A stretch of DNA of 64,000 nt from positions 12,485,052 through 12,549,051 of the forward strand of contig NC_049996.1 in the NCBI RefSeq assembly GCF_000003815.2. The letters run 5' to 3'. The notes beneath the pieces were generated by a model. That model ran no database searches and was not told the DNA's origin. It saw nothing but the letters and a program-made list of their open reading frames with translations. This stretch comes from Branchiostoma floridae. Lineage: Eukaryota; Chordata; Leptocardii; Amphioxiformes; Branchiostomatidae. A program made the translations under genes and the position numbers. Positions 13,535 through 64,000 of the stretch are shown here, one piece after another; positions within the stretch are counted from its first letter, which is position 1, and the number at the start of each line of letters is the position of its first letter.

Positions 13535-15194
13535 CTAGTGTCCTTTGCAGTGAAGATTGTACGATTTCGGGTAATATTGCGTCCTCAGTTCTTTCAACAT
13601 GTCCTTTGAAATAAGTCCATCCGTTGCCAGATAATTCAAATAGTCTATCGACTTACACATGCCGTTTTGCGTTCTCTCACAGTAAATACAGTGCCTCTGT
13701 ATCGTCGCTTTGTGTTCTTTGTCGGACACGACTGTCAGGGGTTTCTTGATCGCCAAATCGTGAGCCCTTGCTCGTCGCTCCGCTGCAATGACGTAGTCAC
13801 ATTTTAACTCTCTCTGAAACACCATGCAAAAATCCCTATCAACAGTGAACCCCTCATCCCAACTGTTCTTTGGGATCTCTAGTGTTTCTCCCACATCGCA
13901 AGACCACCTGTCCAAAGCTTCACAGAAATCTGCAACGTTTCGATTGATCTTTTTGAAGTGTTCAACTTCGTCTGTTAAGTCTTGACCACCTTCGTCAAGT
14001 TTTATTTGCAGGACGCCGTAAAAATGTTCATATAGAGCATAATCTACATAGCTCCATTGTTTGTGGACTTGCTTTAGGTCATTTGGAATGTCATTCTCGC
14101 TGTCATTACTTTTCCCAATGTTTTTTGATATGTAAAGAATATCCTTATGACTCCAACACATCATTCGTTTAAATAGGACCAGAGATTCGTCGAAACGTTC
14201 CATGATCATCACGATCGGAAACTCCGATTCAATCTTCTCGATGAACATGTCCGTCACTGTCTTCTTGTACGAATCATCTTCTCTGAAATGTGTCGCTAGC
14301 TCCAGCGGAAGACCCAGGTCTACCGAAAGCGGACTTCGGGTGAGAGACACTGGTGGGATCTTACCTCTGCAAATCTTATTTTCGACGTAAAAATGTGTAT
14401 CATATTGCTCAGGGCTTCGAAGAAACGTCACAATAGCGTCTGTACCGTTTGCTGCGATACCAAAACGTTTTTTCAAATCATAAAAATCCCAAACGGATCT
14501 TAAATGGCTTAAAGGTTCTCTTAGTATCGCCAAATACACTGTGTCCTTTGGCATGATCTGGCTAAACTTCTGACTATCATATACCGTGTGGTAGGTCAGG
14601 ATGTCGAAGTTTTCCCTTGGCGAAAATGCGTAGTTCGTACGGGGATACAAGTTCCATGGATAAGTACAAGTCAATAGAAAAGGTTTAGGCAACAGAAAAG
14701 TCAGGTTCCGGTCGTAACCAAAGCGGTGGAGGATGCTCATTATTGTGTCTCCTGCAACTTTGTGAAGTTTTGGAAACGCAACTCTTTTCCTCTCTGTTGT
14801 GCACGGTTTCATACGACCCACTCTGAAATCAGGTTCCATCGCCTCTTTGGCTGTTCTACCATATAGCGGAGGATGAGGCAACCTCTGCCAAGCGTTCTTG
14901 TGTAACGATACCGCAACTCTAGGCTCTTTCAGCATCTTAAAAGGAAGTTCAAACCGCGACGCAAAGTATTCGACCAATCGTCCGGGCTCTCCCTTGTGAC
15001 TCTGACATACGTCGATGACATCTCGAAGCTGATTGGCGTCCAGCCTGATTAGTTTGCGGAGAAGCTGATTTGGTTGGTCCACGTATTTTCGAACCAACTT
15101 GAAGATCATTTGCAATTGAGGACGATGGTCGTATGCCTTTTGTGTTATTTCTGTTATATCCTGGTTTCTTTCGGTCTCATAGTCAATGCTAGTT
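13535..15194 (-). CDS. Galactose-3-O-sulfotransferase-like enzyme A, main exon
   Basis: This is the main exon of a predicted type II Golgi sulfotransferase that would move sulfate from PAPS to a galactose-ended glycan or glycolipid. With the exon at 15989-16086 the protein has 585 residues. The frame stays open upstream of the TTG at 15115 to an acceptor after a pyrimidine tract (CCAACAG, exon from 15194), and phase 2 fits the first exon. Seen: LPHPPLYGRT, then FPKLHKVAGDT with the PAPS-binding lysine at about residue 178, HRFGYDRNLTF, DILTYHTVYD, and the 3'-phosphate motif region AILREPLSHLRSVWDFY (255-271). These match the Gal3ST/galactosylceramide sulfotransferase family. Vertebrate members are about 400-490 residues; here there is a longer stem and a C-terminal cysteine-rich tail (CIYCERTQNGMC, ending LHCKGH). 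Acceptor substrate is unknown. A paralogue lies 2.6 kb upstream on the same strand. Confidence 0.88.
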
Positions 15195-15988
15195 CTGTTG
15201 GATCAAAAATGGAGAGAAAGAAAATGACTGTTATTTTTGTAAGTTGCATACATCTCTACAAATATACCTGATTCGTATCGGCAGGGGAACCTAAAGAAAA
15301 AAAACATATCATATATATAGCTAGCGTACTAGTCGAATAAAACAATAGTCAGATATTAAAAATGATGGCTGCAGATAAGTCTTTTTATAAATTCCTTGTC
15401 ACTCCCATGTTCGGAAGTATCGTTTTTATGTGTATGTTTGTTTGTTGACTTGCGTGTCCGTGTTTGTGCACCTACACTTTATTTGTTTATTGCATGCAAT
15501 AGAGATATGCATAGACACGTCTCGCCACAAAGTTACAGCAAACACTTTATGAAGGTCGGACTTACGAAAGTGACAGGAAATAGAGTTCAAAGGTAGTAGA
15601 ATCCTTAGCTCAGATAACCCACTGGCATTCTAGGTCATGGGGTCAACAGAAGAGTCTACTAACTCACGGGAGGTATTATTTTAGACCTGTATATTTGTCT
15701 GTGTCCTCGCAGTTATTATCCACAGTTACATATTTCTCATATGCTTGTCACGTTCACCGCAAAGTACATGTATACAATGTTCATCAAAACTTTATTTTGC
15801 GGAGGTCTGAGTTCTTCAAACTCTTGTTAAGTAAGATTCCATTCCACTACATATACTCACAAAACCAGAAACAGACAATGTACAGCTTTTCTCAGAATCT
15901 AAGTGTAGATACCTATTTACCACACACGGCAAGCCATATTGCCAGACTTGTTTCTAACGTCTTTCAGAAGTAAAATGTTTACATTCAC

Positions 15989-17812: not shown

Positions 17813-19640
17813 CTATTTCCCTTTACAGTGAAGATTATAGGATTTAGGATAATATTTTACTCTTAACTCTTTCAGTCTCTCCTTTGAAATGATTTCATCC
17901 GTTGCCAGATAGTTCAGATAGTCTACGGAAAGACACATGCCGTATTGCGTTCTTTCGCAGAACAAGCAGTTTTTCTGTATGATCGCTCTAGCCTCGTTCT
18001 CTATCCTGATCTCCTTGATTTTTTTCGTGACGGGCCATTCTTCTACCCTTGCTTGTCTTTCCGCTGCTAAGACATATTCACATTTCAACTCTCTATCAAA
18101 ACGCAAACAGAAGTCCTTATCCACGTAAAAACCCTTATCCCACTTGCTTTCTTGAATGGTAAGTTTTGGCCCGACATTACAAGACCCATGGCTCAACTGA
18201 TCACAGAAATATGACACTCGTAACTGTATCTTTTTAAAGTGTTCAATCTCATCCGCTAGGTCTTGTCCTCCCTCCTCGAGTTTCTCTTGAAACACTTGGT
18301 AGAAATGATCGTACAGCGCGTAATCCACGTGACTCCATTGTTTGTGGACCTGTTTAAGATTGTCAGGCACGTCTTCTTCCTTGTATAGATATTTCCCAGA
18401 ATTTCTACGCTTGTAGAGGATGTCTTTTAAGCTCCAACACATCATACGTTTGAAGAGGACCAACGATTCGTCGAAATGCTCCATGATCATTACAAGAGGA
18501 AACTCCGATTCAATCTTTTCGATGAACATTTCTGCGACTTCGTTTTTCTCTGTATCGTTCTTTTTATAAAGAGTTGCTAGCTCTAGTGGAAGACCTAGAT
18601 CTACTGATAGGGGGTTACGGGTGAGAGAAACGGGTTGTATCTTGCCTCTGCATGACTTATTCTCAACGTAAAACCTAGTGTCATATCTCTCAGGGTCTTG
18701 TAAGAACATTGTGATACCTTCTGTGCCCTTAGACACAAGGCCAAATTCACTGGACAAATCGTAAAAATGCCAGACAGATTTGAAATGACTAAAGGGTTCC
18801 CTCAGTATCGCTAGATATACCGTATCCTCTGGCATAATTTGGCTAAACTTTTTACTGTCATAAATCGTATGGTAGGTTAGGATGTCAAAGCTTTTCTTAT
18901 CAGAAGGCGGGTAATTCGTGCCAGGGTACAAGTTCCACGGATACGTACAACTTGACAGAAAGGGTTTGGGTAGCAAAAACGTTAAGTTTCTTTCGTAGCC
19001 AAAACGGTGAAGCATGCCTTTGATAGTGTCCCCTGCAACTTTGTGAAGTTTAGGAAACGCAACTCGTGTCCTTTCTGTAGTGCACTCTTTCATGCTACCC
19101 ACTCTATACTCTGGTACCATTGCATCATCAACTGTTCTACCGTATAACGGTGGATGAGGCAACTTCTGCAAAGCACTGACATCAACACTTTCTTGTTTTG
19201 GTACCATCTTTAACTCCAGGCCAAATCTAGTCCCTAAGTACTTGACCCAACTCTCGGGTTGACTCCTATAGGCCTTTATAACGTCTATAATTTGTTTCAT
19301 TTGACTGTCGTCTATTCTTACCAGCCTTCTTATTAACGCATGCGGACTGGAAACGTATTTCTGGACTAGTTTAAAAACCGTCTGCATTTCTGCACGGTTA
19401 TTCTCGTCGGTGGTGTTTATCCTGGGTTTCCTACCCGAACGTGTTTCGTCAAACCTGTAGCGTCTCATTTTTTCGAGCAGGGCTTCGGGGATTAACGGTT
19501 GGTGGTTTTTCACGGCCATGATCAGGGGTTCGAATTGTTCCATGTCGTCACCGAGTCCGATCACTAGGGGTTCCCTTCTTCCGGGCCACGATGGGGCTTT
19601 CTTTGGTTGTTCAGGATACTCCTGGATACTGCTGTTTAGG
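17813..19640 (-). CDS. Galactose-3-O-sulfotransferase-like enzyme B, main exon
   Basis: This is a tandem paralogue of the enzyme at 13535-16086, with long identical blocks: YGRT, CTTER-RVAFPKLHKVAGDTI, LTFLLPKPFL, YPWNLYP-TNY, DTVYLAILREP-SH, RNPLSVDLGLPLELAT, FDESLVLFKRMMCWS, and the C-terminal KSYNLHCKGK. The PAPS-binding lysine and the arginine/serine motif are intact. The exon is longer than a start at the GTG of 19564 would give: the frame is open to an acceptor TTCTTAAG (exon from 19640), and phase 2 matches the donor at 19799/19798. The stem is about 50 residues longer than in enzyme A. Cysteines of the tail (CLFCERTQYGMC) are conserved. It probably has the same Golgi sulfotransferase activity with a different or overlapping acceptor. 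No frameshift or stop was seen in the body. Confidence 0.87.
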
Positions 19641-19798
19641 CTTAAGAAGTATAGAATAAAATGGAATCAGAATTATATGTTATATGTGGAAATGCCCAAT
19701 TTTTATCTAGAATCAGGTGACAATGAATATTAGCAAAGTATCACGAAAGTAAGATTTTTAGCGAATATTAACATTTTCTTATAAGATGATGTTTTCAC

Positions 19799-24718: not shown

Positions 24719-24826
24719 GAGAGCCAGCCGGCTGGTTGTCCGCCCTCCCCGACTATAGGGGATAACAACCCTGCAGCAGACAGCGGCACAGACCGTTTAG
24801 ACAGAACTTAGCTGTTATATAGTTTC
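24719..24826 (+). other. 5' untranslated part of the LRR receptor main exon
   Basis: A strong acceptor (TTTTATTTTTCAG) ends at 24718. The sequence that follows is GC-rich and has in-frame stops before the ATG at 24827, so it is leader. Confidence 0.55.
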
Positions 24827-26233
24827 ATGTCTAGCATGTTAAATGTAGTACAGCAGGTGGTAGTTGTTGTTTTCACTATCGTTGTGAGTTGTGTAAGTTT
24901 AGAACCGACATGTTTTCCTGGGTGCAAGAACACAGAATCCTGGTCATTCTGTTTTCCCATTAGTAAACAAGATTATGGGCCCAACTTTCAGAGAGGCACC
25001 TGTATATTATGCCCCACGCAGCTACAGAAACAGCCAGTACTACAGAATTCATCCCAGCCAACCTCAACATGCCTCCCTAACAAGGGCCGTGTAGCAATTC
25101 GGGGGTTCTCTTTTGGGATACTGTCAGTTCAGAAACTACGACCACCACAGCAGTCGGAAGTAAATGATCTTGCTCTCGTTCAATGTGGAATCACAGATTT
25201 GGAACAGGGTATTTTAGCTAAGTTTCCTCAATTGCAGTACCTATACATTGACTTCAACAACCTGACCCACGTCAAGAAAGATTGGTTTGATGATGTTGGT
25301 CGAAAGAGCCAATTCTATACCTTGTCATTGTCACACAACCACATACGCGGTATTGATTCAAAATGCTTCCAAAATCTTACTTCCCTGCAAACATTACTAC
25401 TGGACGGTAACTCTTTGCAAAGTATCCACCCATCTTGGTTTCATAATCCCGCCAAACAACATCTTTCTTTGAAATCAAATTCTATCGAAATTATCCCTCC
25501 ACAGGCATTTAAGTCACTGTCACGGCTGGTACATCTGGACTTGAGCAGGAATGTGTTGACATGTTTGTCAAGAGAAACTGTAGAGGGGCTTCCCAAACTA
25601 CACACACTGTCACTGGGTGGGAATAGGTTGTTTGCCCTTGATGATTCTGTCCATTTGGTAATGAACTGGCGACTGGACTACCGTTATTTCGATTATACCG
25701 GCCATCGCGTTGCAGTAAGGTTTAACAAAGTGCTTTTCTGTATCACTGAAATTCCCCAACTGAGGCAATCTTATCATGTCGAGATGCCACATGACAACCG
25801 CACACAGGCAGCTCGGCCAAATGCAGAGCCACTCAAACAGTGCAATTGTCTAGCTTCTGGGCTTAGAGGAGCAAGCCTAAGAAAGTTTAGCCTGCCACTG
25901 ATTATCATATCAGTCGGCACAGAATCAGACAAACATGCTAAAAACATCGCCCACTTGTGCAAACATGCTTGGGACAATGTCTCCCTTGTAAAGGTAGCGT
26001 TGTGGGGAGACATTACTCTGCAGATTGTTCCCATTGGTAAAGACAGGTCCTGCAATCCCCCAATTGTTGCTATAGTTCTATCAGATGTCGTCTCCAGTGA
26101 AAACAGGACCAAGCTGCATGCTGATAGACACAGTGATAATGTCTTTGGCCACGAAGAAATGATGAATGTAACATGTTTTGTCAACACTTGGGAGGAGACC
26201 TACCAACACGTCTTCACGGGAGGGTCTTTTTAG
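24827..26233 (+). pseudogene. LRR receptor ectodomain, cut by a transposon after residue 464
   Basis: A secreted or cell-surface leucine-rich-repeat protein. Seen: a hydrophobic signal peptide at about residues 6-24, a cysteine-rich N-terminal part (residues 28-95), six to seven LRRs at about 115-275 with motifs such as LQYLYIDFNNLT, FYTLSLSHNHI, LQTLLLDGNSL and LVHLDLSRNVL, and a C-terminal region with paired cysteines (QCNC). The last four residues before the stop are encoded by the inserted element. The gene continues in the same frame after the element (30090-31152) with the transmembrane segment and tail. As it stands the product would be a 468-residue soluble ectodomain. I recognise the fold but not a named vertebrate orthologue; large LRR receptor expansions are known in amphioxus. 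The body is otherwise intact, so the insertion looks recent or is one allele. Confidence 0.8.
26209..26217. repeat. Left target-site duplication (9 bp, CGTCTTCAC)
   Basis: The same nine bases occur at 30090-30098 immediately after the element. Nine bases is the duplication size of Mutator-class and Foldback elements. Confidence 0.85.
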
Positions 26234-27341
26234 CGAATGCCCACAAACGCCCACTCTAGAGAAGTCCGCGCTGCACGGATCTCATTTTTTTTGCTTGGAA
26301 TATGTCCACGTTGTGCTCCCATGTATTAATCCTGAGTTTCAAGTCAATCAATTGACCCGAAGTGACATAAATCAAAGTTTTCGATTCTCGATGGTCTTTT
26401 TAGCGAACGCCCAGCAAAATGTCTTTTTAGCGAATGCCCACTATATCCACAAAAATATCGGCCGTCGCGCAACGACACCTAAACCTACCACCACAAACAT
26501 GTTCAAGATGGTGTCCCATTGATGTGTACGGAGTTTCCGTGCTTTACAAGCATTTTAAGTCCCTGTTTTTGGTCAAAATGTACGGCGACGATACTACCAT
26601 ACTTTAACTATAGCAATTCAAAATGGCGGGCACTAGTCATGTGACCTCCTTGCGGGACTGTTCTATAAGTATCGCGGGAGGGACTGTTGTAGCATAGCTT
26701 CTCATACAACCATTTTAGAGTGAATTCTGAACAAGATTTTCATTTCATAGTGCTATCATCTGACTAATATTTACAATGTGGTCATTTTTTCTGTGCTATT
26801 ATTACCCAGGTTTGAGGAACTTAGTGCAAATTTGGATATTGATTCACCTCAGTGCCCAATTAATGTACAAAAGGCTTAGACACATTAGTGTTATAAACCT
26901 GAATAGGGGCAGGTAACCAATACTAGAAAAACATAGCTATTTATTATTAACAATACTATTTACATTATAATAATAACTCTTCACCAAACTGGACTTTTCT
27001 TATCTTTATTTATCACAGAAACATTGTTACAATGAGGATTTGATTAGATGAGTATCTGTTACAGTGTGTACAAACTTATTTCAAATACAAAAATGTATTA
27101 CGTTTCACTTCCCAAATATTTTTAAAGTATTGGAAGAAGTTGACACATAAACAATATTAATTGCATTATTTATGTGAAGCAAAATGTGACCACATGCTAT
27201 CAATAGCCTAATAAAATGTTGGAACATGGCACAAGCGGGCTCCTCTTCTGAGTACAGAAAGGAAATGTTTTATAACATTAAGTTATGACGTAGAAAATTT
27301 CAATTGTAAAATGTACCTTTATTAACATTTACAAACAAATT
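26218..27341 (+). repeat. Left inverted arm of the Foldback-like element
   Basis: It pairs base for base, with scattered differences, with the reverse complement of 28959-30089. The sub-terminal part carries two extra copies of the terminal word at about 26394 and 26420. It ends at the assembly gap. The small frames shared by both arms are by-products of the inverted repeat. Confidence 0.85.
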
Positions 27342-27614: not shown

Positions 27615-28107
27615 ATATAGGCCATTAACAGGTGAGTAAGGCGTCTTTCCTTTGCCTATAGACCAGATAGGGTATTGTGCAGGTGAGTAAAGCAACTTTC
27701 CTTTGCCTGTAGACCAGATAGGGTATTATACAGGTAAGTTAGGTGTCTTTCCTTCGCCTATATACCAGATGGGGCATTATACAGGTAAGCAATGTGTCTT
27801 TCCCTTGCCTATATACCAGATAGGCCATTATACAGGTGAATAAGGTGTCTTTCCTTTGCCTATAGACCAGATAGGTCATTAAACAGGTGAGTAAGGTGTC
27901 TTTCCTTTGCCCATAGACCAGATAGGCCATTATACAGGTAAGTAAGATGTCTTTACTTTGCCTATAGACCAGACGGGGTCTTATACAGGTGAGTAAAGCA
28001 ACTTTCCTTTGCCTATATACTACCATATAGGCCATTATACAGGTGAGGAAAGCGTCTTTCCTTTGCCTATAGACCAGATAGGTATTAAACAGGTGAGTAA
28101 AGCAACT
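27615..28107 (+). repeat. Inner minisatellite, left half (about 51-bp units)
   Basis: About ten units of the type ACAGGTGAGTAAGG--TCTTTCC + TTTGCCTATAGACCAGATAGG + -CATTAT. Nearly every unit contains CAG|GTGAGT or CAG|GTAAGT, the consensus 5' splice site, in the sense of the disrupted receptor gene. Confidence 0.85.
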
Positions 28108-28935
28108 TACTTACTTGTATAATGCCTTATCTGGTCTATAGGCAAAGGAAAGTCGCCTTACTCATCTGTGCGGTGTCTTACCTGGTCTTTAATCAAAGGA
28201 AATACACGTTACTCACCTGTAAGGTGTCTTACCTAGTCTGTAGTCAAGGAAACACACCTTATTCACCTGTACGGTGTCTTACCTGGTCTGTAATCAAAGG
28301 AAATACACTTTACTCACCTGTATGGTGTCTTACCTGGCCTGTAGTCAAGGAAACACACCTTACTCACCTGCACGGCGTCTTACCTGGTCTGTTATAAAAG
28401 GAAACACACCTTACTTACCTGTATGGTGTCTTACCTGGCCTGTAGTCAAGGAAACACACCTTACTCACCTGTACGGTGTCTTACCTGGTCTGTAATCAAA
28501 GGAAATACACGTTACTCACCTGTACGGTGTCTTACCTTGTCTGTAGTCAAGGAAACACACCTTACTCACCTGTACGGTGTCTTACCTGGTCTGTAATCAA
28601 AGGAAATACACGTTACTCACCTGTACGGTGTCTTACCTAGTCTGTAGTCAAGGAAACACACCTTACTCACCTGTACGGTGTCTTACCTGGTCTGTAATCA
28701 AAGGAAATACACGTTACTCACCTGTACGGTGTCTTACCTGGTCTGTAATGAAAGGAAATACACGTTGCTCACCTGTAAGGTGTCTTACCTAGTCTGTAGT
28801 CAAGGAAACACACCTTACTCACCTGTACGGTGTCTTACCTGGTCTGCTATAAAAGGAACCACACCTTACCTACCTGTACGGCGTCTTACCTGGCCTGTTA
28901 TAAAAGGAAACACACCTTACTTACCTGTATTGTTG
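28108..28935 (-). repeat. Inner minisatellite, right half (about 50-51-bp units)
   Basis: About sixteen units, in reverse orientation to the left half: ACTCACCTGTACGGTGTCTT + ACCTGGTCTGTAATCAAAGG + AAATACACGTT, alternating with a variant AGTCAAGGAAACACACCTT. The alternation suggests that pairs of units were amplified together. On the minus strand each unit shows two splice-donor-like words (CAGGTGAGT and CAGGTAAGA). Confidence 0.85.
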
Positions 28936-28958: not shown

Positions 28959-30089
28959 AAATTGTTTGTAAATGTTAATAAAGGTACATTTTACAATTGA
29001 AATTTTCTACGTCATAACTAAATGTTATAAAACATTTCCTTTCTGTACTCAGAAGGGGAGCCCGCTTGTGCCATGTTCCAACATTTTATTAGGCTATTGA
29101 TAGCATGTGGTCACATTTTACTGCACATAAATAATGCAATAAATGTTGTTTATGTGTCAACTTCTTCCAATACTTAAAAATATAAAAATATTTAGGAAGT
29201 GAAACGTAATACATTTTTGTATTTGAAATAAGTTTGTACACACTGTAACAAATACTCATCTAATCAAATCCTCATTGCAACAATGTTTCTGTGATAAATA
29301 AAGATAAGAAAAGTCCAGTTTGGTGAAGAGTTATTATTATAATGTAAATAGTATTGTTAATAATAAATAGCTATGTTTTTCTAGTATTGGTTACCTGCCC
29401 CTATTCAGGTTTATAACACTAATGTGTCTGAGCCTTTTGTACATTAATTGGGCACTGAGGTGAATCAATATCCAAATTTGCACTAAGTTCCTCAAACCTG
29501 GGTAATAATAGCACAGAAAAAATGACCACATTGTAAGTATTAGTCAGATGATAGCACTATGAAATGAAAATCTTGTTCAGAATTCACTCTAAAATGGTTG
29601 TATGAGAAGCTATGCTACAACAGTCCCTCCCGCGATACTTATAGAACAGTCCCGCAAGGAGGTCACATGACTAGTGCCCGCCATTTTGAATTGCTATAGT
29701 TAAAGTATGGTAGTATCGTCGCCGTACATTTTGACCAAAAACAGGGACTTAAAATGCTTGTAAAGCACGGAAACTCCGTACACATCAATGGGACACCATC
29801 TTGAACATGTTTGTGGCGGTAGGTTTAGGTGTCATTGCGCGACGGTCGATATTTTTGTGGATATAGTGGGCATTCGCTAAAAAGACATTTTGCTGGGCGT
29901 TCGCTAAAAAGACCATCGAGAATCGAAAACTTTGATTTATGTCACTTCGGGTCAATGGATTGACTTGAGACTCAGGATTAATACATGGGAGCACAACGTG
30001 GACATATTCCAAGCAAAAAAAATGAGATCCGTGCAGCGCGGACTTCTCTAGAGTGGGCGTTTGTGGGCATTCGCTAAAAAGACCATGCG
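28959..30089 (-). repeat. Right inverted arm of the Foldback-like element
   Basis: It is the inverted partner of 26218-27341. The outermost bases ATGCG at 30085-30089 create an ATG that is in frame with the receptor remainder. Confidence 0.85.
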
Positions 30090-31152
30090 CGTCTTCACCA
30101 CGCCCTTGTCCAGCACTCCTGATGACACCGTGTGTCCGAGAGAGGGGGTGACTGTGAGCACAAGAGAGCCTAAGATCAAGACAACAAAGTTAATCCTGAA
30201 TCAGACAAATGCCAGTACAAATGGAACTGTGAAGGAGAAATCCCCACGTGTAGCGTTCATCACAATGGTAGTTGTAGTAGGGGTAGTACTGGTAGCGCTG
30301 TTTGTGATGTATGTTGTCAGAAGGTGTTCACGGGGCGACCAAGCCGCACAGGCTGCCGGCCACCTGGCAGGAGTTCATGGCACTGCACCCAGTAGGACTA
30401 CACAGCAGTCTTCATCTTCAGGTGATGATCCTCAGTACAGTGTAATTCCCGACGAGTACTATAACCAACAAAACAGTGGGACTTCAAGTTCAACAACGCA
30501 ACAGACTACTGATGATTATAGTCAGATTCCCGATGAGCACTTCAACTACTACAACACAAGACCAGACGCACAGCATCCTTACTGGGAGATTCCAGATGAG
30601 TATTACAATCGCTACAACACGTACCCTTCGACACGTCGGGTAACTCAAGATGGAGAGGACTACTCTGTAAGGTTTAACACCGCTACATCTGAGATTGTCC
30701 TTCCGTCATCAACCAGGCTCGGTGGTAAACACCCATCCTACGATACAGCCCCTCAAGTCTGGAGAGACCCACAGAATTACCAGATACCCGCACGTGGACG
30801 AAATAGAAACATTATATCACGCAGAATGACTCAAAATGGCAACAGTCTTCACCGATATATGGGTTTGACTGGTAACTACAGATATAACAGGAGACGCCTA
30901 TCATACCCTCTGACACTTCGTGTGCCTCAAGATAATGAAAACTATTCTGCAAGCTTAAGATGTAACACTACAGCTGAGGTCACAGGTCCTTCCGTCATCA
31001 ACCAGGCTGGGTGGCAAACATCCATCCTACGATACAGCCCCTCAAGTCTCGAGAGACCCACAGAATTAACAGAAACCTGCATGTACGTAGACAAGTACAA
31101 GGCTTCACTGAAAGCCAAACCCACAGAAAACAAAAATCATCCAAACACGTGA
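30085..31152 (+). pseudogene. LRR receptor remainder: transmembrane segment and tyrosine-rich tail
   Basis: This is the 3' part of the receptor split by the element; true gene sequence resumes at 30090. The frame matches that of 26217. From the ATG at 30085, given by the element end, it would encode 355 residues: a Thr/Ser-rich stalk with N-glycosylation sites (NQT, NAS, NGT), a transmembrane helix at about residues 56-78 (VAFITMVVVVGVVLVALFVM), a basic stop-transfer RRCSR, and a cytoplasmic tail with three copies of a YxxIPDE(Y/H)(Y/F)N repeat (YSVIPDEYYN, YSQIPDEHFN, YWEIPDEYYN) plus further YxxL/I-type sites (YMGL, YQIP). Such tyrosine motifs suit binding by SH2 proteins or adaptor-mediated endocytosis; this is inference. 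There is no stop inside the frame. Without a promoter in the element this part would be silent. Confidence 0.75.
30090..30098. repeat. Right target-site duplication (9 bp, CGTCTTCAC)
   Basis: Identical to 26209-26217; the codon phase is the same on both sides. Confidence 0.85.
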
Positions 31153-33440: not shown

Positions 33441-34330
33441 TGGACGAGAATAACTAGAGAACGTGTTGATGGATCGTCATGATTTTTGGAAAGTAGATAG
33501 CCCAAGCAACTATGTACATAGTGAAATACTAATTATGCAAATCAGCAACTAATTTGCATAATTAATGAGGAAAGTTTATAAATCCACTGCATTTCACGAT
33601 AGGACTTTCAAACTTGTCACATATATAGATGAGAAACAGAGAAATATCAATGCATATTAATTATGCAAATGACGGCCTCATTTGCATAATTAATGAGAAA
33701 ATATAAACGTATTGACTGATCGTCATGATTTTTGGTATGTAGATAGCCAAAGGGAAGACTTACATGATGGAATTCTAATTATGCAAATCGACAGCTAATT
33801 TACATAATTAATGAGGAAAGTTTGTAAATCCACTGCATTCCTTCATAGGACTTTCAAACTTGTCACATTTGTAGCTGAGAAAGAAAGAAATATCAATACA
33901 TTATTAATTATGGAGATGATGATCTCATTTGCATAATTAATGGAAAATATAACGTGTTGACGGATCGTCGTGATTTTTGGTATAGATAGCCTAAGTAAAA
34001 ACTTACATAATGAGATACTAGTTATGCAAATTAACAGCTAATTTGCATAATTAATGAGGGAAGTTGATAAATCCACCGCATTCAGTGATAGGACTTTCAA
34101 ACTTGTCACATATGTAACTGAGAAAGATGGCAGAGAGTAAGAGGTGTATGTTTGGGTCCGCTAACGTCTTTCCTTGAACTGCAGGAGCCGGTTTAGTTTC
34201 CTACTTTGAAAGAGAATAAGTCAAGAAGGATGAAAGGATCATCATGATTTTTGGTATGCTGATAACTTAAGTGATGCTTGATACAATTTGATATTATTAT
34301 GTAAATAGGGATCTAATTTATATAAGCAAT
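33441..34330. repeat. Tandem repeat, about 245-bp units, octamer-rich
   Basis: Units are anchored by GATCGTCATGATTTTTGG at 33472, 33718, 33963 and (variant) 34237. Each complete unit holds two small palindromes of the form ATTATGCAAAT-N10-12-ATTTGCATAATTAATGAG and the block CACTGCATT--GATAGGACTTTCAAACTTGTCACAT. The palindromes contain the POU/octamer word ATGCAAAT on both strands. Confidence 0.75.
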
Positions 34331-35768: not shown

Positions 35769-37026
35769 GTTTGGCGATCACCTTCTTGTGCAAAAGGAGC
35801 CAGGCTGTGTGTACACTTAAGAAGTGCAGGAGTTGGCAACATGTTCGACCTTCGGAAACGTTTTACAAAATGGAAGAGTTGCGATAGATATAGTATGGTA
35901 TGGCCTTCTTAAGAAATATGTTCGAAACTAGAATGTGATTTTTTTTTCTAAAATATTCCATGTACACAATTAACACTACGACACCTTTGTCAAAAGAAAT
36001 CAAACATTCAAAACACAACAAACTGTCCAGAGAGAAAGTTGATATTTCAAAAGGATTATATTGCTACTTTTAATCGTATCATTACCCGTTGGTATTCTGT
36101 AGTGCTGAATAAAAGCGTGCCTTTTCCCAAAGACATCCTTATATTATACCAATTAGTTCTCCCATCAGGGGGTGGGGAGACACGTAAGCTTATGGCATAG
36201 CTACTCGCAGTGATTTCCATTACTTAGAGCGTGGGTGACAACTTTATTAACAGATAGGAGGGCTGGCACTTAATACACCAACATGACACTATCTTAAGCG
36301 TTATCTAACTTTTCTCCTCCAAATATACCCACTTGCTAACGTATGTTTGATTAGAACTTGTCTTTCACACCTTTTATTTAGCCTCGGAGCTATACGAAAT
36401 GACAGGGAGAAATCCCTCAAAATTAATGTCCATCCGTCTTGCGTTGTTCAATGTCATAATTTTTCATCACTAACGCTTATTACGCATGCTTAACGCTTTC
36501 TAAAGGCCGCTGGTCTTAATTTGTTTTCCGTCCTATCGTCCCACGGCAGCGTCGGCGTTTCATAGATATTGTCTTTCTACTAAAGCCTCAACCCTAAAGG
36601 CGGAAAATCTGTTACGAGTTAAGGTGTCTACTGGGACTGTGGTCCCGTCTCGAGCGCTAGAAGGTGTGAAAACAACGTAGTGGAGGTAGGAAACGGCCAG
36701 GCTTTGTAAACTCAGCCGCCATTAATCATACAACACACCCCCTCTTTTGCTGCTATTACTCTTCGTTTAAAGTTGTCAATATCTTTCCGATCGCAGAGTC
36801 ATTCCAAGTAAGTCGGCCGAATCTGTGTAGAGTATGTTTTTTTTCGTAAGATGCAGTCGAGAAGTCGAGAGTCTTTCTCATCATAGTCTGACGAAAAAGG
36901 CTTAAGATTAAGAACAAAGTAAAAAGACTAAGCCGCAATGGAATGTGGGCATTTCAGCTCCAAATGTATCCCCGGAAGAACGAATGGCCAGGCGCCAAAC
37001 TGAGTATAACAGAGTAAAGATCTGTG
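35769..37026. other. Intergenic, no feature seen
   Basis: No supported exon or repeat. GC content rises after 36.5 kb. Confidence 0.4.
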
Positions 37027-37360
37027 TGTGGATGGTGTTCAGTACCAGGGACAGGTCTGTTAACATGTATGTAGATGGTGTTCAGTACCAAGGACAGGTC
37101 TTTTTACTAGTGCATGTATGGTAATCAGTGCCATGGACAGACGGGTTAACCTGTGTATTGATGATGTTCAGCACCAAGGACAGCTCTGTTAACTAATGTC
37201 ATGATGGTGTTCAGCACCAAGGACAGGTCTGTTAACCTGCGTGTAGATGATGTTTAGTACCATGATCTGTCTGTTAAGCTATATGTAAGCAATGTTCAGC
37301 ACCAAAGACAGGTCTGTTAACCTGTAGTTCGATGGTGTTTAGCACCAGGGTAAGAACAAC
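37027..37360 (+). promoter_or_regulatory. Tandem array of eight RE1/NRSE-like sites, 43-bp period
   Basis: RE1-like cores begin at 37038, 37081, 37124, 37167, 37210, 37253, 37295 and 37338, a spacing of 43, 43, 43, 43, 43, 42 and 43 bases. Against the core TTCAGCACCNNGGACAG (15 fixed bases) the units score by eye 14, 14, 12, 15, 15, 10, 14 and 12. The spacer also repeats (TCTGTTAACCTG...GATGGTG). RE1 is the binding site of the zinc-finger repressor REST/NRSF in vertebrates, which silences neuronal genes. Whether the host has such a factor, and which gene would respond, cannot be told from the window. Confidence 0.6.
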
Positions 37361-39164: not shown

Positions 39165-39615
39165 CTTTTCTTTCACTTTAGTCTTCTGTCACATTCACTC
39201 ATTTCCGTAATGATTCCGGCTCTCTCTCCAAACGTTCACAAAGCTAAAGCTATAATGATGCGTCCATTTGATTCTTGTGAAACATATCGTTTCTCATTAT
39301 GTCTTCTTCACATTCACTCCTCTTCTGTCTATCCTTGGTACCGTCTCTCTCTCTCCACATGTTCAATCAGCTATAATACTGTGTCCATTTGATCTTTATC
39401 ACATCTATCTTTTCTCCTTTTATCTTTTTCACATTCATTCATTTTATTCCTATCTTTCAATCCGTTTATCTCTCCATACGTTCACTAAGTTATAATGATG
39501 TGTCCATTTGATTTTTGGGACATCTACCTTTAATCATTTTGTCTTTTATTCACATTCACTCATTTCCTGCCTATCTTTGGATCCATCCATCTACTTCTCT
39601 TTTCATATGTTCCCA
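39165..39615. repeat. Tandem repeat, about 120-bp units, almost four copies
   Basis: The anchor GTCCATTTGAT recurs at about 39262, 39383 and 39502. Each unit has TCACATTCACTC-TTTC-T, a CT-rich stretch, C-AC-TGTTCA, AAGCTATAATGATG and the anchor. The last unit is truncated near 39615. The strand asymmetry (pyrimidine-rich plus strand) is marked. Confidence 0.7.
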
Positions 39616-40394: not shown

Positions 40395-40680
40395 GTCCCA
40401 TCTTAGGGACTGATTGCCTTATGCAAAAGAATATGGCGGTTGCTCTGTCCTTGGTGCTGATTCGCTGGTTCATGACTTTTGTTCTGTACTAGGAGCTGAT
40501 TGGTCGGTACAAAGGAACATGACATTTGCTCTGTCCTTGGTGCTGATTCGCTGGTTCCTCCCGAATTTGCTCTGTCCTTGGTGCTGATTCGTTGGTTCCT
40601 GACATTCACATTGTCCTTGCCGCTGATTTGCCATTGAAAGAGAGTACCGGCACCGTCCTTGGTACTGATTGGTTGTCACA
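40395..40680 (-). promoter_or_regulatory. Second tandem array of RE1/NRSE-like sites, about 42-bp period, opposite strand
   Basis: On the minus strand, cores of the form ATCAGCACCAAGGACAG end units whose anchor TGATT (plus strand) lies at 40458, 40497, 40544, 40585, 40624 and 40666; a decayed unit may start at 40395. Scores against the 15 fixed bases of TTCAGCACCNNGGACAG by eye are 14, 12, 14, 14, 11 and 12. The spacer (GCTGGTTC-TGACATT) is unlike the spacer of the array at 37.0 kb; only the core is shared. Confidence 0.55.
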
Positions 40681-44638: not shown

Positions 44639-44655
44639 TTCAGCACCAAGGACAG
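44639..44655 (+). promoter_or_regulatory. Solitary RE1-like core
   Basis: TTCAGCACCAAGGACAG matches all 15 fixed bases of the RE1 core. Confidence 0.5.
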
Positions 44656-45720: not shown

Positions 45721-45737
45721 TTCAGCACTAAGGACAG
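45721..45737 (+). promoter_or_regulatory. Solitary RE1-like core
   Basis: TTCAGCACTAAGGACAG matches 14 of the 15 fixed bases of the RE1 core and is followed by GGGC. Confidence 0.45.
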
Positions 45738-45975: not shown

Positions 45976-46003
45976 CTGCGCTATACGGCTGTGCGCCCCT
46001 GCC

Positions 46004-46091
46004 GGGCCGTGTAACTCCCCTCCCCGCGGTGGATGTTAGCTCTCCCCGGGCCGTGTACCTCCCCTCCCCGCGGTGGATGTTAGCTCTCCCC
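46004..46091. repeat. Perfect-order 44-bp tandem duplication, GC-rich
   Basis: Two units begin GGGCCGTGTA and end GTTAGCTCTCCCC, differing at one base (AACTCC/ACCTCC). A third start is lost at GCCCCACC. Confidence 0.9.
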
Positions 46092-47735
46092 GCCCCACCT
46101 TGAAAACCCGCCCGCGCGTAACTGTCGCAACACGACTCCATTTTATTACCACTAATTGTACAGGGACTGCCTTCGCCTAACGCTATTACGGGCATGCGTG
46201 AAAAATTAGATCTTACTGTACATTTATTGACTCCATAGTATATTATATGATACATTTTATTACATGCTTGAAGGAAAGGCGGTCGGGAGATGAAATTAAT
46301 ATAAATCACGGCCAGTATATTAAGGTTAACGTATTTATTAGACGGCGGCTTGATGTATTTTAGATTGCGGGCCATTCTGTCTGTTGGAAACGTAGCTCGT
46401 TTTTAAATTAAGAAACGCTGGGTTCCAATGAAGTGCACACACATAGAAACCTCGCTGTTGTTTCCTCGTGGGAGCCGAACGAGATGGGAGGGACGGTTTT
46501 TCCGAATCAGTTGTGTCCCCAACAACCTTTTCCCCACCTTGACTGATATATAATTATGCCAGGCAGGTTTTTTGATCAGTTGGCGAAAACATGTCAATTC
46601 ATTATGCGCTGATATCATTTTATCATAGGGAACACCCGCTATTAGCGAGATAGCGACGTGTTAATTCCTTTATACGGTCCGGCGGTCCGGACAAACGAGA
46701 TAGCACCCACAGAACGTTCTTATCTTGAAATACTGCCTCACACGGCGGTCTTAAACCGTGCAAATTAAATTTAGGCGCAAGAAAAGTCGCCCAGGTACGA
46801 TCTAAATGACAAACCGGGCAATAAAATGAGGTTGTCGGCAGTCTGGCGACCTCTGGGCCGCCGACAAGGGCAGTCTGACACGGAGAGCACCCGCTCCCCT
46901 AGGGAGTCCCGCAAAATGGCTTTTCGCAAACCCCAGAAAATTGGCCTTTATAGACCTGGAAAGAACGTTAAGAACCCGGTGATAAACGCACCCAGAGCCG
47001 GTCTCTATGCGATGGTCTCAGGGGACCAAAACTGTTCCATTTCTCCCCCAATTTTCATCAATTTTCTGGCCACGCGCACTTAGGGCCCCGCCGAGTTTTC
47101 GCCATCCCTCCCAAGATTCAGGTTTTGTCATCGAGACATCTAAATTACTTCCGTCCCTAGAAATAATACGCAAATTTGAAGAAAAGTGCTTTTAATGTGG
47201 ACCGCATTAAAGTAGTCGAGCTAAATGCAATAATAGCATTAGATTGCTCGTATTTAATTGGTTCGCTTCGGATCTGATTGCGGGTCTCTTTGAATTGTAA
47301 AGTGAGTCGGCTGCACGTATCACGTTGCTATAGTAACGCGGACGTTGGAAAGTTTCTGAGGAATACTCAAAGGCTGAAATTGAATTAGATTCGGGAATTC
47401 TAATTGGAGATCAGTGGGGCCGACTTAATTGATTGTGCACGGGGACACATCTACCGTAGCCTATAGGAACACGTCGTGCGGAATAGTAAGAATTAGAGCA
47501 TGGATAGGGAGGGGAGGGGAGGGATAGGGACGGAACGAGGGAGGGAAAGAGGCGGGGAGGGGAGGAAGATGACAGCAGGCGAGGACAGGTGGCATGTCGA
47601 TGGCTTCGTTTCTTAAGTTTAAGAGACCTTTAAGGTTAATCCACACAGCTGACGTGGCCTCTCTTAAAACAAGGAAAAGCTGCTCTCTACTTAAACCCGT
47701 TTTGAGATCTTCGTCAAGAAGGTTATATTGGGAAT
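46092..47735. other. Intergenic DNA, CpG-containing, no gene seen
   Basis: A G/A-rich stretch lies at 47500-47580. A palindromic X-box-like GTTGCTATAGTAAC lies at 47324-47337. No exon could be supported. Confidence 0.4.
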
Positions 47736-47955
47736 ATTGTTTGTTTGTATGTATGCATGTATACTATGTATGTATGTAAGTTTGTGATTGAACAGCATAA
47801 CTCAAGAAGCTATTGATGGATTGTAGTGAAATTTGTTATGCGTTTAGGTCTTACCCTAACAAAGTATTGATTAGATTTTGAGCCTCCTGGTATCTTGCCT
47901 TGGTGCTGAAAGAGAGGTTTTGCCATCCTCTGTTCTGGACAAGCTGTAGCCATCA
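47736..47955 (+). repeat. Dispersed repeat, AACTCAAGAAGC family
   Basis: GTATGTATG tract, then AACAGCATAACTCAAGAAGC, GATTAGATTTTGAGCCTCCTGG, TGCTGAAAGAGAGGTTTTGCC and TCTGTTCTGGACAAGCTGTA: the same order as 33115-33440. Confidence 0.6.
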
Positions 47956-58269: not shown

Positions 58270-58640
58270 GGCCCAGTGGGACAGATTGGTCGTGCGGTTG
58301 TCGTACGATTGTCGTAGGATCACAGACAATGGTTTTCTTCGGATAACCAAGAAGGTTATATCTGAGATAACAATGCATGTATCATAGAGTCTGTAATATT
58401 CAGCTGTCTTGGCCCAGTGGGACAGATTAGTCGTACGGTTGTCGTACGATTGTCATAGGCATGATCACAGACAATGGCTTTCTTCGGATAAGCAAGAAGG
58501 CTCTCCTTGAGATAACAATGCATGTATCATAGAGTCTGTAGTATTCAGCTGTCTTGTTATACAAAAAGGCTTGTTTTAGATCCTTGTCAGTGGTTGGTTC
58601 TGTCACAGCCTGCTTGGCAAAATCGTACGACAGGCCGACG
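58270..58640. repeat. CGTACGA-family: 151-bp tandem duplication plus part copy
   Basis: The phrase GGCCCAGTGGGACAGATT starts copies at 58270 and 58421. Both carry GGTTGTCGTACGATTGTC, ATCACAGACAATGG, TTTCTTCGGATAA-CAAGAAGG and AACAATGCATGTATCATAGA. The copy then runs into GTCAGTGGTTGGTTCTGTCA, the family's internal block. Confidence 0.7.
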
Positions 58641-61800: not shown

Positions 61801-64000
61801 ATAACTCCCAAATGTTCGTATTTCTCTTATACGTAAAGGTAGATCTATGTCAGACCTGATCTATGTTGAAAACGAATGTATAGGCGAACCATTGTAACAG
61901 AAACACCATCAAACAGATACCGCTAAAGACGTATCCTTCATGCGTTTCTAAATCGATATATCGGACGTCAAATCATGTCGTCGTCATTCATAACTTCTGA
62001 AGCGCCATTTTTTGCTGCAGGAAATTTGGGGGTAGCGTTAAAGGGAAATATGCTGGTGTATGTTTAATAGATATAGTTGAGATACTGTTATTATGTCTTA
62101 ACTTCTTACAGTTACATGGGTCTCTATGGGTATTGTCATCTAAACAATGACTATATTAAGACATGCGTAAATGTTGCGTTTTTTAGTACAAGTATGCTTT
62201 ACTTGTGTTTAAAGACCAGATTTCGTATAGTGGTATAATACAACAGGGACATGAAAGCACGAATCACATAGAAGGTATACTCTTCAAAGTGTTTAATGTC
62301 GCAGTAAATTTGTACAGAATACAACGTACAGTGCTACCGAAGGCACCAAATATACACACATTTACATAATCAGGGGCACTCCCTCCGAAACAACTTTTTT
62401 TACTTATCATATCATAACGTTACAGATGGAAGAATTATGATTTTGTGCGGCATTGCATGTGACAAGAGAATACATGAATGTTAAAAATCAACCAAGGAAA
62501 ATAAATAACTTTCTATTGTTGTTGGTTGACATAATACAGAATGGCCACTTTTCTCCACTAACCAACAAATTTCTCTTCGTCAAAAATCACAGCTCTACTG
62601 TAGTTTTCGTTATCCAGAATTTACGCTATCACATTCAACATGAATTTCCAATGTTATATTTCATACATATTTTCCTATAGACATTGTTCTGTTGCAACAA
62701 CAACAAACCTGTCCTATCTCATAACTTCCTTTCCCGACTAAAGTTAGCATTGTATCCGACCACGTGCATTCAATTTTTGACAGCCGTTGTGCAATTTTTC
62801 GTATCTATCCGTCCCTTCACCGACTTTTTTCCTCTCTCTCGCTCCATGATAGCGAAACGTATTTAATTAGAACAGAGGACAGCAGAGGGAATACAGTCCC
62901 CTCTACATTGCTAACAAAATATCATCCCCTGGGACAGGGAGTCGTATTAATGTGTCATATTCATACCGACCCCGAGGTATCATATGCCGTGGCAGAAAAT
63001 AAAGTATGACTGAAAATTGGGCGAGCATAACAAGAAAGCGTCTCTCAATTCATATCTGTGCCGGCATCGCATGGTACGACAATTCATCAAGCGTGGGTCG
63101 TGATTACATCTGTGCCGGTCCCGAGTGAGTTTGGGGTGCCCGGTGTTGGAGGGAGTGTTGGGCCCGTGATAAAGTCATAACATTAACATCCAGGCGTTAT
63201 ACAGTCCACAGTACAGATGGTATCACACACACACGTCTGTTAGACGCGAAATGTGAGAAAGTCTGGGTTATAAATGACTGGATTTACAATAGACGACAAT
63301 CCGGTACGTTTTGCCTGGTTTTGTAGGCACACACTGAATGTTGCCAATATGATGAAATTATGAAGTTTTGGATCTAGAAAGAGAAATATTTCAATACGCC
63401 TTAGATACATACATTCAGTACTCCTCAGATACATTCTCTTTTCACATAAAGGATTTGCGTCAAAAGAGTAACGTGAATTGTGTATGCATCGTTTTATCAA
63501 TGAATTCTTTTTAAAAATGCGTTATTAGAAAACGGTACAATCAGCCAAGAAGCAAGATGTTTGAAAATGAGATGATGAAAATACAACTTGTTATTGTGTT
63601 TTCTGAACCTTATAGATTTCGAAAGAGTAGTTAGCATCCTTTTATACCAGTACCACGGCAATATTTTAAGGTTTTTTAACAATCTTTGTCTCTTCTGTCC
63701 CCCAATGGCAGTTTCAACTTCTTCCCATTGAGAAATACGAAGTCACAATTCTTTTAACATTTCATATGCGGCTACCTTCTATTCAGAACATCCACAGAAT
63801 TCATAAGTTGAAACAATGAATTTTAACGGGTGCTCCTTTGTTGAGCGAGCAACACTTTTTGCCGGAAAGAAATCGGACGCCTTGCAAAATACACTGGCAA
63901 TGTGTTCACTGTTCCATGCCACATGGGATATTGATTTTGAACTGATTTACAGTTCTAGTGCGTAAACTGAGAGAGACTTGATGTATATGCGTACCATAGC
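58860..64000. other. AT-rich intergenic DNA, no feature seen
   Basis: Over 5 kb without a supported exon, RNA gene or clear repeat. All open frames are short and without conserved motifs or paired splice sites. Confidence 0.45.

Follow-up and report, generated by a model that had tools for sequence, protein, structure and literature searches.

The 64-kb stretch of Branchiostoma floridae DNA analyzed here (the window; C18:12,485,052-12,549,051 of the 513-Mb assembly, in which contigs C1-C19 are 17-35 Mb long) carries a tandem array of sequences resembling RE1/NRSE, the site of REST/NRSF. This factor is generally regarded as regulating neuronal genes in vertebrates. The array raises the question of whether such sites are read by a protein in this invertebrate chordate or are simply part of a spreading repeat.

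RE1-like cores in the window

The core-bearing features of the window are as follows.

37022..37354, + strand: array A, eight RE1-like cores in a 43-bp minisatellite (motif scan and Tandem Repeats Finder)
37167..37183, + strand: exact core of array A, 0 mismatches (motif scan)
37210..37226, + strand: exact core of array A, 0 mismatches (motif scan)
37253..37269, + strand: decayed sixth core of array A, 5 mismatches; the next step is 42 bp (core alignment)
40442..40675, - strand: array B, in which six copies carry a core, spaced 39, 47, 41, 39 and 42 bp apart (motif scan)
44639..44655, + strand: solitary exact core (motif scan)
45721..45737, + strand: solitary core, one mismatch (motif scan)
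47894..47910, - strand: solitary core, two mismatches (motif scan)

The eight cores of array A, which extend from 37038 to 37354 on the forward strand, start at 37038, 37081, 37124, 37167, 37210, 37253, 37295 and 37338 (steps of 43, 43, 43, 43, 43, 42 and 43 bp) and deviate from the 15 fixed core positions by 1, 1, 3, 0, 0, 5, 1 and 3 mismatches, respectively. An earlier note on this DNA had described eight cores at 43-bp steps, one of them 42, with two full matches and three cores that miss one position; the motif scan bears out the positions and steps, and the mismatch counts agree. Tandem Repeats Finder places the repeat at 37022-37347, with a period of 43, 7.6 copies and 69% matches, and at this level of matches array A is an old, diverged minisatellite. 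Its consensus unit in that program fits the IUPAC RE1 consensus, NTYAGMRCCNNRGMSAG, with 0 mismatches. When shuffled 43-mers were scored against the same IUPAC consensus, only 1 of 20,000 equaled the unit and 8 more had one mismatch.

Within array A, the mean share of minor bases is 0.117 at the 15 fixed core positions versus 0.272 in the other columns, and a template rotated around the unit shows variation as low as the core does in 1 of 42 registers, in a test that is biased toward low core variation because the array copies were chosen by core likeness. Of the two positions in the spacer of RE1, position 11 is free to vary, whereas the eight copies all have A at position 10. The same comparison at locus L009 gave no shifted template as good as the core (0 of 39); at locus L015 the core is hardly better kept than the rest (12 of 42 shifted templates as good).

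Beyond the array described earlier, the window contains array B and the cores at 44639, 45721 and 47894. Altogether it has 16 cores with at most three mismatches, compared with a mean of 1.09 and a maximum of 4 in 100 dinucleotide shuffles; one of the 16, at 62921 with 3 mismatches, is no more than chance would give. The flanks of array B differ from those of array A, and three of its cores have one mismatch each (position 1, A for T).

The nearest recognized genes to array A are a leucine-rich-repeat gene, with an open frame at 24,812-26,233, and two galactose-3-O-sulfotransferase genes. The open frame at 30,052-31,152 may belong to the same leucine-rich-repeat gene. Long open frames at 13535-15202 and 17813-19666 (-) represent adjoining galactose-3-O-sulfotransferase-like genes. 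Two adjoining minisatellites with units of ~50 bp (27617-28100 and 28126-28929), by eye apparently reverse complements of each other, sit between two open frames of what is maybe one leucine-rich-repeat gene. They are flanked by a nearly duplicated open frame of ~95 residues (26172-26522, +, and 29785-30189, -), which is an inverted duplication. Other tandem repeats, at 33460-34127 (period 246 bp), 39247-39578 (121 bp), 46002-46092 (44 bp) and 58270-58556 (145 bp), are unrelated to the core as far as seen. A domain search of two open frames between 32 and 63 kb of the window recognized no domain or gene. Array A may differ here from the 'mirage' minisatellites, which likewise are unstable tandem units of amphioxus but span exon-intron borders, as described in the available part of PMC3087553.

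Abundance and shape of the core in the genome

Genome-wide there are 7,427 exact cores (3,462 and 3,965 on the two strands), as opposed to a single occurrence of the reversed pattern; permitting one mismatch raises these numbers to 16,728 and 22. Pairs of half-sites 3-30 bp apart number 500 (237 and 263 by strand; 15 for the reversed pattern), and many of the first 100 of these include a canonical core or bridge neighboring cores. With 7,427 pairs at 2 bp versus 500 over 28 other spacings, the half-sites belong together at exactly 2 bp. The earlier identification of the core with that of vertebrate RE1 is supported by its count against the reversed pattern and by its strict spacing. Cores of the RE1 type are spread widely through this genome, on a larger scale than the earlier note had stated. 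The eight copies of one unit in array A amount to a single event, and a repeat unit might merely resemble RE1 by chance; given the genome-wide excess of the core and its recurrence in unrelated sequence, the probability of this is negligible.

The first 100 exact cores, all on C1 within 8.73 Mb, form 44 same-strand clusters, 35 of them single. Extrapolation from this stretch, 1.7% of the genome, gives about 2,600 core loci genome-wide, a rough figure, as the same extrapolation predicts 5,879 exact sites versus the 7,427 counted. In a 200-kb sample made up of 20 regularly placed 10-kb stretches (1,964 bases masked), the expectation was about one cluster, but not a single exact core was present. 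The sample had 1, 2 and 54 sites with 2, 3 and 4 mismatches, compared with means of 0.15, 2.5 and 24.5 for 200 permuted cores. The excess at four mismatches is unspecific because the reversed core gave 38 such sites (after 0 and 1 with 2 and 3 mismatches) and other spacings gave 23-60. No excess of three-mismatch copies was found in this sample, and with no sea of decayed copies there the exact cores do not represent the best-kept members of some large family in decay.

We compared 23 exact-core clusters, one site each, from 20 C1 loci around known cores and from the window. From -20 to +39, no flanking position exceeds 0.44 bit; conservation stops at the edge of the 17-bp core and is relaxed at both bases of the spacer. 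Of the 23 clusters, 19 have A at position 10, and position 11 is A in 13, G in 6, C in 3 and T in 1. These clusters show no enrichment for the CGCC that forms the 3' end of vertebrate RE1: position 18 is G in 11, T in 6, C in 5 and A in 1, positions 19-20 are near background, and position 21 is T in 10 and C in 9. This comparison and the 200-kb sample both disfavor the view of solitary cores as relics of one decayed repeat. Among 26 loci or sources, one-mismatch variants concentrate at positions 1, 3 and 6 (18 of 32 locus counts), which are loose in the RE1 consensus. Locus L023 (C1:2999500-3002500) has seven cores with at most two mismatches at 207-1760, in irregular steps of 149-408 bp, several of them with a right half of GGAAAG in place of GGACAG.

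According to the available parts of PMC3529185 and PMC11025195, the canonical form of RE1 is TTCAGCACCACGGACAGCGCC, and its 2-bp spacer is not conserved. The lancelet core shares both half-sites, TTCAGCACC and GGACAG, letter for letter, and is likewise asymmetric with a loose spacer fixed at 2 bp. It differs from the 21-bp vertebrate site in lacking the CGCC end, in its frequent occurrence in tandem arrays and in its 7,427 exact copies. A matrix scan of the human genome yielded 1,333 canonical and 2,375 non-canonical RE1 motifs, by a criterion unlike that of the exact-core count (PMC2687797, available part).

Minisatellite families and a small RNA

The unit of array A has 23, 20, 18 and 15 of 26 spacer positions in common with the units at L051, L015, L053 and L049, respectively (11 of 26 with L050, which is not significant). 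Judging by these spacers, array A is a member of a dispersed 43-bp minisatellite family. When 200-bp flanks were compared by BLAST after masking of the core in the middle, only array A, L011, L015 and partly L026 matched one another over more than the length of the core. Other core arrays have other units and periods: 38/40 bp at L009, 51/56 bp at L052, 39-47 bp in array B and a 27-bp step at C2:4.937 Mb. By this comparison of repeat units, the 43-bp period is inherited within one dispersed family, and the core recurs across unrelated families. The earlier note had related the period to about four turns of the DNA helix, with bound factors aligned on one face. Because other core arrays have other periods, helical phasing was rejected as the general cause of 43 bp, and family descent takes its place.

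The earlier note had also held that scatter of the same minisatellite over the genome without relation to genes would refute its reading; of this, the scatter itself is seen in part, as members of the 43-bp family are found elsewhere in the genome. Selfish repeats that spread the core with no bound factor, its likeness to RE1 being without present function, would account for this dispersed family and for the finding that, at 10 of the 20 C1 loci, two or more cores on the same strand lie within 500 bp. Pairwise identity of core and spacer was compared in six 43-bp arrays. At L053 the core is no better kept than the spacer (0.81 and 0.81), as expected for such repeats; in array A (0.89 and 0.67), L051 (0.94 and 0.76), L050 (0.87 and 0.79), L015 (0.95 and 0.90) and L049 (1.00 and 0.85, two units only) the core has the higher value. 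An account by selfish repeats alone is disfavored by the recurrence of the core with unrelated flanks, by the single cores that make up most of the C1 clusters and by the 200-kb sample, in which three-mismatch copies are not in excess (two-mismatch copies, 1 vs 0.15). We consider it unlikely, though it is the strongest of the alternatives.

REST-type sites multiplied by repeats are known from transposons: RE1-like sites occur in human LINE2 and retroviral repeats and in a mariner silencer, according to the available parts of PMC2687797 and PMC4777549. Those sites sit inside transposons, whereas the lancelet cores lie in minisatellites of several unrelated units.

Another sequence that contains the core (TTCAGCACCAAGGACAG) is bbe-miR-2060c-3p of B. 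belcheri, gttcagcaccaaggacaggc, as listed in the available part of PMC5650284; it consists of the core plus flanks of the L015 unit. Neither 2060 nor the core appears in the available part of PMC2728532. We take this RNA as a sign of transcription of such core-bearing sequence, and it may be a repeat-derived small RNA. It also suggests that the core might be kept as a small RNA or as the target of one instead of being a site for protein binding. The RNA is annotated as a microRNA, but the lancelet core lacks a perfect hairpin of the form searched (0 cases in the genome of the reverse-complement core followed by the core within 30 bp, as perfect stems in that order), and the folding of three stretches from array A was not superior to that of shuffled sequence (z of -0.58, -0.47 and -0.11). 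A small RNA would also leave the loose spacer and the identity with RE1 unexplained, which makes this possibility quite improbable.

A candidate REST protein and the possible origin of the sites

REST-type factors outside vertebrates have already been claimed in print: in its available part, PMC4777549 presents Charlatan as the dipteran NRSF orthologue and names SPR-4 in nematodes. We found no paper in the open-licence literature that describes an amphioxus REST gene or RE1 sites, and the main text of PMC6292497 mentions neither REST nor NRSF.

A search of the genome with finger 9 of human REST (a query of 44 residues, with both first-look candidates scored) identified a single place, C4:20253612-20253704, where the match is short (48% over 31 residues, E 2.4e-4). 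The DNA of this locus (L055, C4:20253400-20253800) translates into ...KNEEPIVKNTDGDYVCIYCDRSFTDKNMWTQHISRHK followed by a stop; the finger itself reads GDYVCIYCDRSFTDKNMWTQHISRHK before that stop and has 16 of 34 identities with human REST in BLASTP. A lone finger at the extreme C-terminus is the REST arrangement, and in vertebrates this is the CoREST-binding finger. We regard the C4 finger as a candidate REST C-terminal finger. In searches for the DNA-binding fingers, none of the matches listed (the best 150 of 4,253, 5,736 and 6,144 candidates) lies near it, and the Pfam REST finger PF24540 has 21 matches, none on C4, among the best 150 of 4,001 candidates scored. Of the REST-like multi-zinc-finger gene that the earlier note suggested looking for, the candidate C-terminal finger has thus been found, and the DNA-binding fingers were not located among the matches listed. 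The best long finger match, at C15:4.002 Mb, was rejected as REST, as its fingers are generic and TGEKP-linked. No solved structure of REST fingers was among 12 sequences listed at a cut-off of 1e-30. Very large clusters of C2H2 zinc-finger frames are seen among the matches listed on C158, C10:22.3-23.1 Mb, C16:18.0-18.4 Mb, C200 and C323.

With hundreds of C2H2 matches and no recognized REST finger array among those listed, the RE1-like core might be read by another C2H2 zinc-finger protein from the expanded families; a conserved core of 17 bp without the vertebrate CGCC tail would agree with this. However, all 15 fixed positions and the place of the loose bases equal those of vertebrate RE1, an agreement hardly to be expected of an unrelated protein, and C4 has a C-terminal finger that resembles that of REST. 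We give this alternative a small chance, somewhat below that of selfish repeats.

The cores are probably genuine RE1-type sites that a sequence-specific DNA-binding protein encoded in this genome recognizes; in this explanation we infer the binding, the identity of the protein, the silencing and any target gene. The protein that reads the 17-bp core would most likely be a REST of cephalochordates in which the lone C-terminal finger is retained. A few thousand RE1-type loci would be kept in the genome, with tandem duplication multiplying some of them, and array A would be one member of the dispersed 43-bp minisatellite family, with the site as part of its unit. When bound, the copies would bring in a corepressor of the CoREST type, and in cells expressing the factor the DNA around them would stay silent. 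Several results weigh against this explanation: no REST DNA-binding fingers were identified among the matches listed, the CGCC end is not enriched, the core is no better kept than the spacer at L053 and hardly so at L015, and the 200-kb sample lacks exact cores.

More tentatively, the full REST/RE1 silencing system may be older than vertebrates, with the bound site repeatedly nucleating minisatellites in this cephalochordate lineage, a combination that we think possible but doubtful. For example, a tightly bound repressor could stall replication and so lead to the birth of a minisatellite at the site; silencer arrays would then arise independently in unrelated sequence and subsequently spread through the genome. 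Thousands of RE1 cores together with a REST-like C-terminal finger in an invertebrate chordate make the origin of REST directly testable. If this explanation is true, silencer-carrying minisatellites would be a further route, beside transposons, by which regulatory sites spread. The findings hint at a nerve-gene silencing system that is older than vertebrates and has been multiplied by repeats.
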